Origin: Actinopolymorpha alba DSM 45243
Lineage (GTDB): Bacteria > Actinomycetota > Actinomycetes > Propionibacteriales > Actinopolymorphaceae
DNA length: 64,000 nucleotides
Direction: 5' to 3'
NCBI RefSeq assembly: GCF_000373925.1
Contig: NZ_KB892757.1
Coordinates: 102,618 to 166,617 of the forward strand
The notes under the pieces were generated by a model. That model was not told the origin of the DNA, did no database searches, and worked only from the letters and a program-made list of their open reading frames with translations. The position numbers and the translations under genes are program-made. Position 1 is the stretch's first letter; every line of letters starts with the position of its first letter. Below, one piece after another: positions 36,042 through 44,188 of this stretch.

Positions 36042-36914
36042 GTGGCTGAGGAGGCGCGGCCGATCACCGTCGGGGTGGATGGCAGTGCGGGCAGCGCACT
36101 GGCGATCCGGTGGGCGATCGACGAGGCGCGCAGCCGACGGGCACCGCTTCGCCTGGTGCATGCGTACCAGATGTCCAGCGTCATCGGGTGGTACCCACCC
36201 AGCGACTACGACGTCTACGGCATCAGGCTGGCGGCTGAGGACGTGCTCGCCAGTTCGCTCGCGGAGACCCGCGGACGCGTGGACGACCTGTCGGTGACGG
36301 GAACGACCGTCCCCGGCATGCGGGTCGGAGTACTCCTGGACGAGTCCGAACGCGCGAACCTTCTGGTGGTGGGTGCGCGCGGCCTCGGACGGCTGACCGC
36401 GACGGCGCTCGGATCGGTGAGCTCGGCGGTGGCGGCGCGCGCGGCGTGCCCGGTGGTGGTGATCCGTGGCCTCCCGTCCCGACCCGACGGACCCGTCGTG
36501 GTCGGTGTCGACGGGACCGACCTGTCCGAGGACGTCCTGCAGTGCGCGTTCGACCACGCCAGCAGGTACTCCCTGCCGTTGCGGGCCGTCATGTGCTGGG
36601 CGCCTCGCGCCGCTGGGCTGCTCCGCCGGACCCGTGAGGAGCGGCCGCCGGCGGAGGAACGGACCCGGGCGGCGCTGACGATGGCCGAGGCGCTGGCGGG
36701 TTGGCAGGAGAAGTACCCCGATGTCCGGGTCGAGCGGCATGTCATCGAACGGCAGCCCGTCGAAGGGCTGCTCGAGGAGTCGCTGCACGCGCGGCTGCTG
36801 GTGGTCGGTGCGCACGGACGGCACGCGATCGCCGACACACTGCTTGGTTCGGTGAGCCAGGGCGTCCTGCACCATGCCACCTGCCCCGTCGCCGTGGTGC
36901 ACGGAAGCCGATAG
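36042..36914 (+). CDS. Universal stress protein, tandem domains
   Basis: A 290-residue protein with two complete UspA domains. Domain 1: ITVGVDGSAGSALAIRWAID to VVGARGLGRLTATALGSVSSAVAARAACPVVVI. Domain 2: PVVVGVDGTDLSEDVLQCAF to VVGAHGRHAIADTLLGSVSQGVLHHATCPVAVV. Both have the G-x2-G-x9-G(S) ATP-binding motif. The GTG start has GGGAGG upstream and lies 16 bp after devR, so one operon. This is the tandem type (Rv2005c/Rv2623-like) induced by DosR in mycobacteria. Confidence 0.93.
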   Translation: MAEEARPITVGVDGSAGSALAIRWAIDEARSRRAPLRLVHAYQMSSVIGWYPPSDYDVYGIRLAAEDVLASSLAETRGRVDDLSVTGTTVPGMRVGVLLDESERANLLVVGARGLGRLTATALGSVSSAVAARAACPVVVIRGLPSRPDGPVVVGVDGTDLSEDVLQCAFDHASRYSLPLRAVMCWAPRAAGLLRRTREERPPAEERTRAALTMAEALAGWQEKYPDVRVERHVIERQPVEGLLEESLHARLLVVGAHGRHAIADTLLGSVSQGVLHHATCPVAVVHGSR

Positions 36915-37043: not shown

Positions 37044-37550
37044 ATGGCGGAGTTGATTGAGCTGCGTCGCAAGCACGCGGAGTTTGGCGCCGCGCTGGAT
37101 ACTCTCCGGCGAACCGCCGATGAGATGGAGAGCGGGACCAGGCTCGAGCTGTGGGATCGGCTCACCGCCACCGTCGGATTTCTCGTCCACGACCTGCTGC
37201 CCTACACCTCGGTGGAGGACGAGATCCTCTATCCAGCCTTGGCAGCAGCGTCGGAGACGTCGACGCCGATCGACGTCCTGCGGGCTGAGCATGTCGAGAT
37301 CGCGCGGATGACCGGCGAACTGGACGAAGCCCGGCGTTCCCTGCCCTTGGGCGAAAACGGAGCGTGGACGAACCTTCGGCGCCTTCTTTACGGCTTGCAT
37401 GCCGTGGCTCGCCTCCATTTCACGGTGGAGGACGAGATTGTGCTGCCGTTGTTGGAGTCTGACCTTGACGCGCGGGATGCCGAGGAGATCGCGGACGCGA
37501 TGCGGGCGGTCGTACATAACACCATGCTGTCGCCTGCCTATCAGGCGTAA
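37044..37550 (+). CDS. Hemerythrin-like HHE domain protein
   Basis: A 168-residue helical-bundle protein. Metal-ligand-type residues occur in RRKHAEFG, FLVHDLLPYTSVEDEILYP, LRAEHVEIAR and LHAVARLHFTVEDEIVLPLL, i.e. two H...HxxxE half-sites. The ATG at 37044 has AAGGAGGAAGA. Hemerythrins bind O2 or NO at a di-iron site, fitting a hypoxia/NO-response locus. No C-terminal domain is present. Confidence 0.9.
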   Translation: MAELIELRRKHAEFGAALDTLRRTADEMESGTRLELWDRLTATVGFLVHDLLPYTSVEDEILYPALAAASETSTPIDVLRAEHVEIARMTGELDEARRSLPLGENGAWTNLRRLLYGLHAVARLHFTVEDEIVLPLLESDLDARDAEEIADAMRAVVHNTMLSPAYQA

Positions 37551-37574
37551 CCGGATCGCCGAGATCGGGTGGCA

Positions 37575-37588
37575 GGGCCTTTGGGCCC
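37575..37588. promoter_or_regulatory. DosR-type box (perfect, C variant)
   Basis: GGGCC-TTTG-GGCCC fits GGG[A/C]C-N4-G[G/T]CCC exactly. It lies 58 bp upstream of the nitroreductase gene and 25 bp after the hemerythrin stop. Confidence 0.65.
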
Positions 37589-37645
37589 CGGCCCAGGGTG
37601 CCTCGGCCTCTGGGGGCAAGGACGGCGAACGACGAACCTCGAACC

Positions 37646-38629
37646 ATGTCTCGGCGGCATGTCCTGACCTCTGGAGAGGAACGTCGTGTCGTGGACGCGG
37701 CGATCCGCGCGCCGTCGGTCCTCAACACGCAGCCGTGGCGATTCGTGTTCAGTGACGACCGTCTGGAGGTCTGGGAGGACCCCGACCGGTTGTTGCCGGA
37801 CACGGATCCCGACGGCCGGTTCATGGCCGTGTCGTGTGGTGCCGCGGCATACAACGCCTGCCTCGCGATCCGCTCGCTCGGGCACGAGGCGTGGATCCAG
37901 GTGCAGCCCCGTCCGCAGTCGGAACACCTCGCGGCCGCCGTCCACATCGGGGTCCGCCGCCCGGTCGCGTCGGAGGACTTCGCGAAGTTCGACATGATCC
38001 CGGCCCGCCACACCGCGCGGGGGCCCTACCGCGAGTGGCGGCTGCCGTTCTCCCTCATCACCCGGCTGGAGGAGGCCGCGGAGGCGGAGGGCGCGTACTT
38101 TCGGGTGCTCACCACCCACGAGACGGAGCGGGTACGTCACATCATCCAGGCCGCCGAGCAGGTCGAGGAAGGCGAGCGCGATCTCGACCAGGAGATGGCG
38201 TCCTGGATCGGGGAGCGGCGGGTCGAGGACGGTATCCCCGCCGCCGCGCTGGGGCCCCGCCCGGTGGACCGGCGCACCCCGGTTCGCGACCTGGATCCGC
38301 ACGGTCACACCGGCCCGCGCGACCTCGCGACGTTTGAGCGGCGCCCCACTCTGGCCGTGCTGGCGACGCCGGGTGACTCGCACAAGGACTGGGTACGTGC
38401 CGGGATGGCGCTGGAGTGCGTCCTGCTGACCGCCGCACTGCACGGCGTCGCCGCGTCGTTCTTGAACGCACCGGTCGAACGTGGTGACCGCGCTCAGCTG
38501 CGGTCGACCGCGCTCGGTCTTGAGTATCCGCAAATGGTGTTGCGGCTGGGATATCCGCAGGGTGGCTCGGTCCCGACACCACGACGACCTGCCGAGCAGG
38601 TGACCTCGACAGGAAGGTCTCGCCAATGA
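37646..38629 (+). CDS. Acg-type nitroreductase-family protein
   Basis: A 327-residue protein of the double nitroreductase (Acg/Rv2032) type. The N-terminal half has AAIRAPSVLNTQPWRFVFSD, the FMN-site region; the C-terminal half has DWVRAGMALECVLLTAALHGVAASFLNAPVE and LRLGYPQGGSVPTPRRP. Acg proteins bind FMN but lack normal nitroreductase activity and are strongly DosR-dependent in M. tuberculosis. The ATG at 37646 is used. The stop overlaps the next start (ATGA). Confidence 0.92.
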   Translation: MSRRHVLTSGEERRVVDAAIRAPSVLNTQPWRFVFSDDRLEVWEDPDRLLPDTDPDGRFMAVSCGAAAYNACLAIRSLGHEAWIQVQPRPQSEHLAAAVHIGVRRPVASEDFAKFDMIPARHTARGPYREWRLPFSLITRLEEAAEAEGAYFRVLTTHETERVRHIIQAAEQVEEGERDLDQEMASWIGERRVEDGIPAAALGPRPVDRRTPVRDLDPHGHTGPRDLATFERRPTLAVLATPGDSHKDWVRAGMALECVLLTAALHGVAASFLNAPVERGDRAQLRSTALGLEYPQMVLRLGYPQGGSVPTPRRPAEQVTSTGRSRQ

Positions 38630-41996: not shown

Positions 41997-42003
41997 TGAC
42001 GCT

Positions 42004-42140
42004 GCCTTTACTCAAGCCCTCACGCAGACAGCTCGCGACATCGTGAAGGGGAGCGGGAGGCGACTTGGCGGAGATCTCTCGGCTTCTTTGCCGAAACTCC
42101 TCCGCCAAGTCATCGGAACCTCGACGGCGATTTCGCATAG
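42004..42140. repeat. Intergenic TCGGC/GCCGA element, copy 2 (fullest)
   Basis: Core hairpin CTTGGCGGAG (42064-42073) with CTCCGCCAAG (42100-42109), enclosing TCGGC-TTCTTT-GCCGA. The left part (GCGACATCGTGAAGGGGAGC) matches 52239-52265 and the core matches 32613-32657. The three loci together define a family of about 130-140 bp. Confidence 0.8.
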
Positions 42141-42160
42141 TGGGCAACTCTCGACCCAGG

Positions 42161-42229
42161 CCAAGATCATTTCGGGAAGTGGCCCACGTTCCGCGCAGGG
42201 CGTGGGCCACTTCCCCGAAATGATCTTGG
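42161..42229. repeat. 28-bp-arm hairpin
   Basis: CCAAGATCATTTCGGGAAGT plus GGCCCACG (42161-42188) pairs with 42201-42229 with a single bulged base. It is the longest arm in the window and could be a strong bidirectional terminator or the end of a mobile repeat. Confidence 0.8.
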
Positions 42230-42512
42230 TCCGCCGTAGGTTGTCTCACGGGCCGGACTGCTGACGATCTGGTTGATCATGGTCCGGCGACCCCTCAATC
42301 AGATCCAGCAACCTGTCCGGCCGGCCGGCCCTCGCATCCCGATCAGGTGAGGCCGGCGGGATTCTCCGGTGCGGGTCCGGCGAGAGGTGGCCGAATGCGA
42401 CCGACCCCTGGGAATGGCGAAAGACCGTACTTTCCCGGGCCGGTGGCCTCTGACTGCCTCCACGGCGCCCGTGATGGGCTCGTACCCGAAGCGAGGAAGG
42501 TGGTGACGACAA

Positions 42513-42948
42513 ATGGCGGCTCGGACGCGGCGCGGTGAACTGACGCGGGCGCTGCCCGAGATTTTCGAGTGGGCGGAGAGCCTTCCCGAGATTTTCGCCA
42601 TGCCTACCGCCGCCGGCTTCCGCGGTATCAGGGTCGAGGAGTTCCTGGAAGAGGGAGAAGTACGTCGTTCGCGCCGAGCTTCCCGGAATGGACCCTGACA
42701 GCGACATCTCGGTCGAGGTCGACAACGGCATGCTGGTGATCCAGGCCGATCGCAAGGAAGAACGCCGGGAGCGCGGGCGTACGGAGTTCCGCTACGGAAC
42801 CTTCACCCGCAGGGTGGCCCTCCCGGAGGGTGCCGACGAGTCCAACGTGAATGCGCGGTACGACGCCGGAATCCTCGAGGTGACGGTGCCCCTCACCGAG
42901 AAGCGCGCGGAGGCGCGCCAGATCCCGGTGCAGCGGACCGGCGGTTGA
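42513..42948 (+). pseudogene. Hsp20/alpha-crystallin small heat-shock protein with +1 frameshift
   Basis: Two overlapping frames together encode one Hsp20. The first (from ATG 42513, GGAAGGTGG upstream) gives ALPEIFEWAESLPEIF and IRVEEFLEEG, then leaves the family. The second gives KYVVRAELPGMDPDSDISV through the IxVxVP-like end (ILEVTVPLTEKRA). The switch is at a GGG run at about 42650-42655 (GAAGAGGGAGAAG), where one extra G explains it. Removing it yields a protein of about 144 residues, like HspX, the main DosR-induced chaperone. A reading error, a true mutation or frameshifting are all possible. Confidence 0.85.
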
Positions 42949-42960
42949 TGCGGGGGACCA

Positions 42961-43033
42961 GCACCGACCATCGGGGGGCGGTCGGTGCGGCAGGTGCGGC
43001 CTCAGGTTTCGAGGCCGCACCTGTTTTCTTTTC
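42961..43033 (+). terminator. Double hairpin with rho-independent terminator
   Basis: GCACCGACC (42961-42969) pairs with 42980-42988. Directly after it, AGGTGCGGCCTC (42992-43003) pairs perfectly with 43011-43022 and is followed by GTTTTCTTTT. It ends Hsp20 transcription 40 bp past the stop and lies only 23 bp before the next start, so it might also act as an attenuator. Confidence 0.85.
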
Positions 43034-43055
43034 CGTACGGCGAAAGGACATTCCC

Positions 43056-43553
43056 GTGAGTGGGTCCGGACCTGACGACGTGACGCGAGCGAGCACGGAC
43101 GAGCTCGCGGCCCATCCGTTCCTCGCTGGCATGCCCAAGGACCACGTCGCCCGGCTGGCCGGGCACGCACGCAAGGTGACCTTGACAAAGGGCGACCAGA
43201 TCTTCGTCGAAGGTGGCGACGCGGACCGGTTCTGGCTCCTGTGGGACGGGCAGGTGCTACTCGACCTCCACGTACCCGGCCGCGGCACGCTGCTGGTCGA
43301 AACCCTTGGTCCTGGGGACGTACTCGGCTGGTCATGGTTGCTCGCGCCGCACGAGTGGCGGTTCGGGGCGGTGGCCGCGCTGGACACGAACGCCGTGGAG
43401 GTGGTCGCGGCGCCGATCAGGACGATGGCGGAGGAGAACCCGGAGTTCGGCCGAACGATGTACCGCCGCTTCTCCGAGGTGGCCACGGCACGCCTCCAAG
43501 CGACCCGGTTGCGCCTGCTCGACGTGTCCGCGGGTACAAGGTCACCCGCCTGA
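43056..43553 (+). CDS. Cyclic-nucleotide-binding-domain protein (no HTH)
   Basis: A 165-residue single cNMP-binding beta-roll: KVTLTKGDQIFVEGGDADRF, then LWDGQVLLDLHVPG, VETLGPGDVLGWSWLLAP and a helical end. The phosphate-binding cassette R(S/T)A signature is not evident (the EWRFGAVAAL segment stands in its place), so ligand binding is uncertain. No DNA-binding domain follows. The GTG at 43056 has GAAAGGA upstream. Similar proteins of this type occur in dormancy loci. Confidence 0.85.
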   Translation: MSGSGPDDVTRASTDELAAHPFLAGMPKDHVARLAGHARKVTLTKGDQIFVEGGDADRFWLLWDGQVLLDLHVPGRGTLLVETLGPGDVLGWSWLLAPHEWRFGAVAALDTNAVEVVAAPIRTMAEENPEFGRTMYRRFSEVATARLQATRLRLLDVSAGTRSPA

Positions 43554-43599
43554 CCTGGCGGATGGCCGGGTCGGCTCATGACGTGCGGACCGGCTCGTC

Positions 43600-43613
43600 C
43601 TGACCAAAGGCCC
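43600..43613. promoter_or_regulatory. DosR-type box (minus-strand reading, one mismatch)
   Basis: Read on the minus strand: GGGCC-TTTG-GTCAG. The same CTGACCAARGGCCC string recurs at 48490-48503 ahead of another dormancy-type gene, which supports a real site. It is 200 bp upstream of the DUF1876 gene. Confidence 0.45.
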
Positions 43614-43815
43614 TGCCGGGCCCGCCCGCGGAGCAGTCGAATAGGAGACGGCGAGGGAAGCCCTTCCTTCAGCGCACATGGAAATTCAGAGAAATCTGGA
43701 AGACCATGAAGACGCTGATCCGGGTTTCCCTTGTCGTTTGTTTTCGGGCCTTTCCGGTCCGGTCTTGTCTGATCTCCCGCCGGTCTGGCCCATCACGCAC
43801 GAGGGGGCGACCAAG

Positions 43816-44085
43816 ATGACAACCGCGAAGCGCTGGGACGTTCACATCTTCATCGACGAGGACGAGAGCAAGACGCGGGCGGAGGCAAGACTCGTCATGG
43901 GGGACAACACCCAACTGGTGGGTACGGGCACGGCCCGGAGGAACCCTCGCGACATGAATGTGCCAGAGATCGGCGACGAGTTGGCCGTGGCGCGGGCCCT
44001 GTCGGAGTTGTCGCACCGTCTCCTGCACGCGGCGGCCGAAGACATCGAGGGCGTCACCCGCCAACCCGCACACCTGGAAGCCTGA
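43816..44085 (+). CDS. DUF1876 protein (Rv1738-like)
   Basis: An 89-residue protein: KRWDVHIFIDEDESKTRAEARL, then TQLVGTGTARRNPRDMNVPE and IGDELAVARALSELSHRLL. This is the DUF1876 family whose mycobacterial member Rv1738 is among the most strongly DosR-induced proteins and has a fold like ribosome-hibernation factors. The ATG at 43816 has GAGGGGGCGACCAAG upstream. The frame is open for 46 more codons upstream, but that part does not look like protein. Confidence 0.9.
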   Translation: MTTAKRWDVHIFIDEDESKTRAEARLVMGDNTQLVGTGTARRNPRDMNVPEIGDELAVARALSELSHRLLHAAAEDIEGVTRQPAHLEA

Positions 44086-44122
44086 CAGCATCCAGGAAGC
44101 CCGGGAAGGGAAGCCCGGGAAG

Positions 44123-44188
44123 TTGATCAGCGGTCGCCGATTCGGACATCACCCGGGGGCCATGTCCGAATCGGTCACCGTTGATCAA
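44123..44188. repeat. TTGATCAACGGT-type inverted repeat, long arms
   Basis: 27-bp arms (44123-44149 with 44162-44188) agree at 24 positions. The outer part is the same TTGATCA-CGGT motif as at 15.64, 23.55 and 32.80 kb; the inner part (ATTCGGACAT) is specific to this copy. Confidence 0.82.

Follow-up and report, generated by a model that had tools for sequence, protein, structure and literature searches.

The hsp20 Locus and Its Neighborhood

The window, that is, the whole stretch of 64,000 nucleotides of Actinopolymorpha alba DSM 45243 analyzed here, contains between positions 36042 and 46217 a dense set of stress genes, which resembles a hypoxia or dormancy gene set. The following genes were assigned with Pfam and NCBIfam on either side of hsp20:

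36042: USP
37023: hemerythrin
37643: Acg-family FMN oxidoreductase
38626: USP
39621: hypF
43056 (after hsp20): cNMP-binding gene
43678: Rv2632c-like gene
44420: DUF4389
45324: aldolase

The literature names USPs, nitroreductases, hemerythrin, and heat-shock genes among the gene kinds of the DevR and OsdR regulons (PMC5069765), and by analogy the cluster may represent a DevR/OsdR-type regulon. This reading gains no support from a box search, because the DevR/OsdR-type pattern was no more common in the window than in shuffled sequence (13 occurrences versus a shuffle mean of 9.6); none was found upstream of hsp20.

The hsp20 gene itself and its signals consist of the following features:

42493 to 42500, + strand: GAGGAAGG, purine-rich, the likely ribosome-binding site of ATG 42513 as judged from its sequence, with a 12-nt spacer
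42513 to 42698, + strand: 5' part of hsp20 in frame 1, 61 aa, of which the last 13 are out-of-frame; N-terminal similarity to relatives; stop TGA at 42696–42698
42648 to 42660, + strand: GAAGAGGGAGAAG, the interval of the move to the +1 frame, placed best at 42657 with each of the four references
42658 to 42948, + strand: 3' part of hsp20 in the +1 frame (KYVVRAELPG... to TGA), alpha-crystallin domain (PF00011), 78% identity to Actinopolymorpha pittospori
42688 to 42948, + strand: 86-aa ORF from the first +1-frame start after 42544, without the conserved VVRAELPG and with no visible Shine-Dalgarno sequence
42693 to 42698, + strand: CCC_TGA, made up of the final sense codon of frame 1 and its stop; the sequence is known to be prone to +1 shifting and lies 12 codons past the junction
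42989 to 43025, + strand: intrinsic terminator-like hairpin 3' of hsp20, 15 pairs and a T-rich tail (terminator scan)

The Frame Change in hsp20

The first-pass annotation had reported that the Hsp20 gene at 42513–42948 switches frame, and this is confirmed: a 61-aa ORF in frame 1 is followed by the rest of the gene in the +1 frame. The frame-1 ORF (42513–42698) encodes MAARTRRGELTRALPEIFEWAESLPEIFAMPTAAGFRGIRVEEFLEEG followed by 13 residues without a match in any relative, and ends with TGA at 42696, so that its tail reads ...RGIRVEEFLEEG|EVRRSRRASRNGP*. The +1 frame carries ...KYVVRAELPGMDP... up to the stop at 42948; from 42658 it encodes KYVVRAELPGMDPDSDISVEVDNGMLVI..., with the TGA ending at 42948. 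In frame-aware alignments with each of four intact relatives, the junction fell at 42657 in all four.

Measured against the A. pittospori gene (L004), the sequence has one base too many, and measured against the three others (L003, L005, and L006) it has two too few. Because two lengths occur among the relatives at this place (EDGK and DEDGT), one base gained and two bases lost are equally good and inseparable readings. The claim of a "single extra G" near 42650 therefore stands as far as the frame change is concerned, at 42657 within GAAGAGGGAGAAG, but several other descriptions fit as well as the single G. The longest homopolymer run at the junction is GGG, and the length of a G run, which the same annotation had proposed to check, is thus not likely to be the issue.

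The HSP20 family (PF00011) matched the +1 frame over 42544–42948 (E 4.8e-22; 78.4 bits versus a Pfam cut-off of 20.8) and also the 86-aa ORF at 42688–42948 (E 6.7e-18). The 61-aa frame-1 piece alone matched no Pfam family at E 0.001. The alpha-crystallin domain of an Hsp20 gene is thus present in the +1 frame, above the Pfam cut-off, and no continuous frame leads from the start codon through it: the frame changes at 42657, and the first later start, at 42688, is inside the domain. This ATG is the only start codon of the +1 frame in 42544–42690, even when CTG and ATT types are counted. In addition, the YVVRAELPG segment aligns with solved Hsp20 domains; it contains a strand needed for dimer formation.

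The C-terminal part is 76–78% identical to that of A. pittospori, and the N-terminal part aligns at only 49–56% identity. The hairpin at 42989–43025 is the strongest of three terminator-like sites in 42000–44100 (shuffle mean 1.5). The retention of both halves, the start region, and a strong terminator, as first described, is borne out by these comparisons, by the likely ribosome site at 42493–42500, and by this terminator. No match was obtained with Rfam over 42000–43700, nor with plasmid records.

The Same Locus in Other Actinopolymorpha Genomes

The comparison covered six Actinopolymorpha genomes, including this one (the other five are G001–G005), and a contig scan identified the closest loci in A. 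pittospori and Actinopolymorpha rutila. In sequence, in domain, and in its location, flanked by hypF and the Rv2632c-like gene, the gene is the same as the actinobacterial Hsp20 (PF00011) of these two species, but here the frame changes at about 42657 and no start codon was found that gives the whole domain. A single open hsp20 frame stands at the same locus in four of the five other species (G001, G002, G003, and G004), in the order hypF, hsp20, Rv2632c-like gene; these four intact orthologues, the counterparts against which a pseudogene would be recognized, encode proteins of 147–148 aa. Among the relatives, a cNMP-binding gene lies 3' of hsp20 in G002 and G003 only.

In the fifth species, G005, hsp20 is reduced to its two ends between hypF and the Rv2632c-like gene. 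In G001 and G003, two copies of CGAGGTCCGG lie at a distance of 360 nt; G005 has lost the stretch between them, a deletion of 360 nt, and the remnant that is left (L009, G005:C8, 1484–1570) has one further base difference at its 3' end. The deletion could be an assembly collapse at a direct repeat. In the sequences as they stand, two of the six species carry a broken hsp20, and their lesions differ. The remnant therefore indicates that the locus can be lost, and the description of the gene as a "core" dormancy chaperone was too strong, because one sister species has only this remnant.

Selection on the Two Parts

Comparison of the window with A. pittospori (L004) over the 94 codons that follow the junction gives 12, 11, and 41 substitutions at the first, second, and third codon positions. 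In a coarse test, dN/dS of the C-terminal part was 0.15 against L004 and 0.27–0.34 against L003, L005, and L006, versus 0.22–0.24 among the relatives (L004 with L003, L005, and L006). For the N-terminal part, the corresponding values were 0.25–0.44 with the window and 0.15–0.26 for L004 with the other relatives. This pattern suggests that coding constraint was in force for the greater part of the divergence. Since the values for the window lie partly above those for L004 with the relatives, selection may have relaxed mildly in this lineage, and the lesion is of uncertain age. The selection data would suit a mutation, recent or somewhat older; the C-terminal part alone would also suit an error.

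Screen for Frame Changes Along the Contig

Reference ORFs were taken from 1.3 Mb of the relatives' genomes (400 kb each from G001, G002, and G003, 60 kb from G005, and 40 kb from G004) and aligned to the 261-kb contig C51, in the middle of which the junction lies. ORFs below 45% identity or 60% coverage were dropped, with a slightly looser ORF filter in the last three reference sets than in the first two. A frame change was detected in one of 52 distinct comparable genes, hsp20, by four references. In a single trial with one random base planted per gene in the other 51, the screen detected 43 of the 51 insertions. The contig is thus not error-ridden, though one error in 52 genes is possible.

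A second apparent frame change, near 37273–38602, was false: the ORF of the relative ran upstream into an out-of-frame reading of the hemerythrin gene. Similarly, eight ORFs of relatives aligned across an in-frame stop in the contig (stops were checked for the first two reference sets). In seven of them the stop fell at positions 16–80 of a stop-to-stop ORF and in the eighth at position 322 of 390, at the alignment end; the stretches across these stops are taken for sequence outside the true gene. Applied to the two relatives A. pittospori and A. rutila (regions L079–L118), the raw detector gave unchecked hits for 2 of 101 ORFs of the former in the latter and for 6 of 92 in the reverse direction. 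A flagged frame change is therefore not rare in itself; what sets hsp20 apart is the close alignment of its two parts, with only a few bases where they join.

Hsp20 Copy Number

The draft assembly comprises 127 contigs and 8.0 Mb, with an estimated completeness of 95.9%. PF00011 has one match in this genome, versus 4, 4, 4, 4, and 3 in G001–G005, and all 19 matches of the relatives are in open frames without stops. No hidden further copy was found with PF00011; a paralogue query of this genome, with E values up to 10, returned the broken copy and four matches at E 0.79–1.12. Two further Hsp20 groups are common to all five relatives and have no match here. One of them is flanked by TerC, whose best match in this genome (76%) lies in the central part of a 284-kb contig, beside a YceI gene; in the 8 kb around it (G000:C40:186001–194000), the Hsp20s of the relatives have no match, and YceI stands instead. 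The flank gene chosen for the other group gave only weak matches in this genome (29–36%). Overall, no intact Hsp20 was found in the whole genome, versus three to four matches in each of the five relatives. In a family-wide search of eight genomes, G006 yielded nothing at the 1e-15 threshold and G007 a single open copy.

Origin of the Frame Change

We consider it probable that hsp20 was recently inactivated by a short indel. A net gain of one nucleotide, or a loss of two, near 42657 would have broken the frame; translation from ATG 42513 would then yield a 61-aa peptide without the alpha-crystallin domain, and little or no working Hsp20 would be made, because the domain lies in the other frame without a proper start. 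The lesion is probably recent, since both parts and the signals are still recognizable and the domain appears to be still under coding constraint. Of the three options offered by the first-pass annotation, a recent mutation fits best in view of the intact relatives, the mid-contig position, and the single case among 52 genes, with "recent" itself being only probable. The lesion is known from one assembly of one strain; that it is real in the DNA, its age, and the inactivity of the product are what we infer from these comparisons. As in an ordinary single-indel bacterial pseudogene, the frame change comes with retained flanks and signals and is absent from relatives, and one sister species carries a copy that is broken in another way; no difference from that type was seen. 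There is a smaller, though real, chance of a sequencing or assembly error, in which case the gene would be intact in the organism and the draft would misread the purine-rich stretch. That the two parts are retained along with start region and terminator, and that the domain substitutions are biased to third positions, agrees with an error, and constraint kept in the only Hsp20 match of the genome is how a misread intact gene would look; the draft state of the assembly, in 127 contigs, points the same way. However, the site has no homopolymer longer than GGG, the junction is mid-contig, and no frame change was seen in the 51 further comparable genes of the contig, in 43 of which a planted one was detectable.

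The other explanations concern how the second frame might be translated. Leaky or coupled translation, by a +1 slip at CCC_TGA (a fusion with about 12 residues changed) or by reinitiation at ATG 42688 (a truncated domain of 86 aa), is unlikely in our view, and it is slightly less likely again that such a leak keeps the frameshifted sole Hsp20 at low output; if true, this would be a translational leak that naturally rescues a broken stress gene. According to one review, CCC_UGA is shift-prone in E. coli, Salmonella, and Listeria phages, with +1 shifting of 15% at pheL in E. coli K-12 and 1.9% in Salmonella, and with use of the shift in the tsh gene of the phages (PMC5009743). As in tsh and pheL, CCC_TGA stands here at the frame-1 stop and a +1 slip enters the right frame, but it lies 12 codons past the junction, in an arrangement absent from the four intact relatives, which read across the spot in one frame. 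A slip at this site replaces the conserved YVVRAELPG segment by VRRSRRASRN, so any leaked product would probably be defective; indeed, the products of slip and restart both lack the conserved [YF]V[VA]RAELPG stretch. ATG 42688 overlaps the stop at 42696, which would favor reinitiation, but no Shine-Dalgarno sequence is visible there. A separate initiation at 42688, which the first-pass annotation had envisaged, also fits poorly with the relatives, as the counterpart of this ATG is an internal Met in three of the four intact ones and a Leu in L006, and conserved sequence lies further upstream. A two-gene arrangement with its own start at 42688 was likewise rejected, as no ribosome site is visible and the proteins of the four intact relatives are 147–148 aa long. 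Least probable, and by our estimate very improbable, is programmed frameshifting at the junction that restores a full-length protein. The two frames do join precisely by homology, and a −2 slip of tRNA-Glu from GAA 42657 to GAG 42655 could re-pair as judged from the sequence. However, none of the four intact relatives has a frameshift arrangement or needs a shift, none of the codons of 42648–42659 (GAA GAG GGA GAA) can re-pair at +1 by visual inspection, and no stop is nearby. In pseudoknot-free folding, the RNA downstream of the junction showed no folding advantage over shuffles (z +0.86 and +0.64), and the stretch across the junction folded worse than most of them (z +2.2). The intact relatives, the missing +1 slip site, and the lack of a stimulatory structure in these folds thus contradict the programmed option that had been proposed.

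Significance and Further Observations

The frame change is ordinary and matters little beyond annotation; what is mildly interesting is only comparative, namely, that hsp20 is broken in two of six species and here in the sole Hsp20 found. If the inactivation by a short indel is real, it suggests that the Hsp20 of the stress-gene cluster is dispensable in Actinopolymorpha, because two of the six have a broken copy with different lesions, once where no other Hsp20 was found; the strain would then be a natural background in which Hsp20 is scarce or missing. In the literature collection searched, no paper covers both Actinopolymorpha and Hsp20, and among the Actinopolymorpha genome papers listed, titles and abstract openings contain nothing on this gene. 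For frameshifted small heat shock protein pseudogenes in actinobacteria, only work on Rickettsia surfaced among the search results.

Two inverted repeats were observed near the gene. The one at 42161–42229, between hypF and hsp20, has arms of 28 and 29 nt, complementary but for one bulged C, and a 12-nt loop; its left arm has a single genome-wide occurrence when as many as three mismatches are allowed, and it is therefore not a repeat family. The other, at 44123–44188, lies 3' of the Rv2632c-like gene; it has 32-nt arms that are 84% complementary and a 2-nt loop, and it is preceded by two tandem copies of GGAAGCCCGGGAAG.
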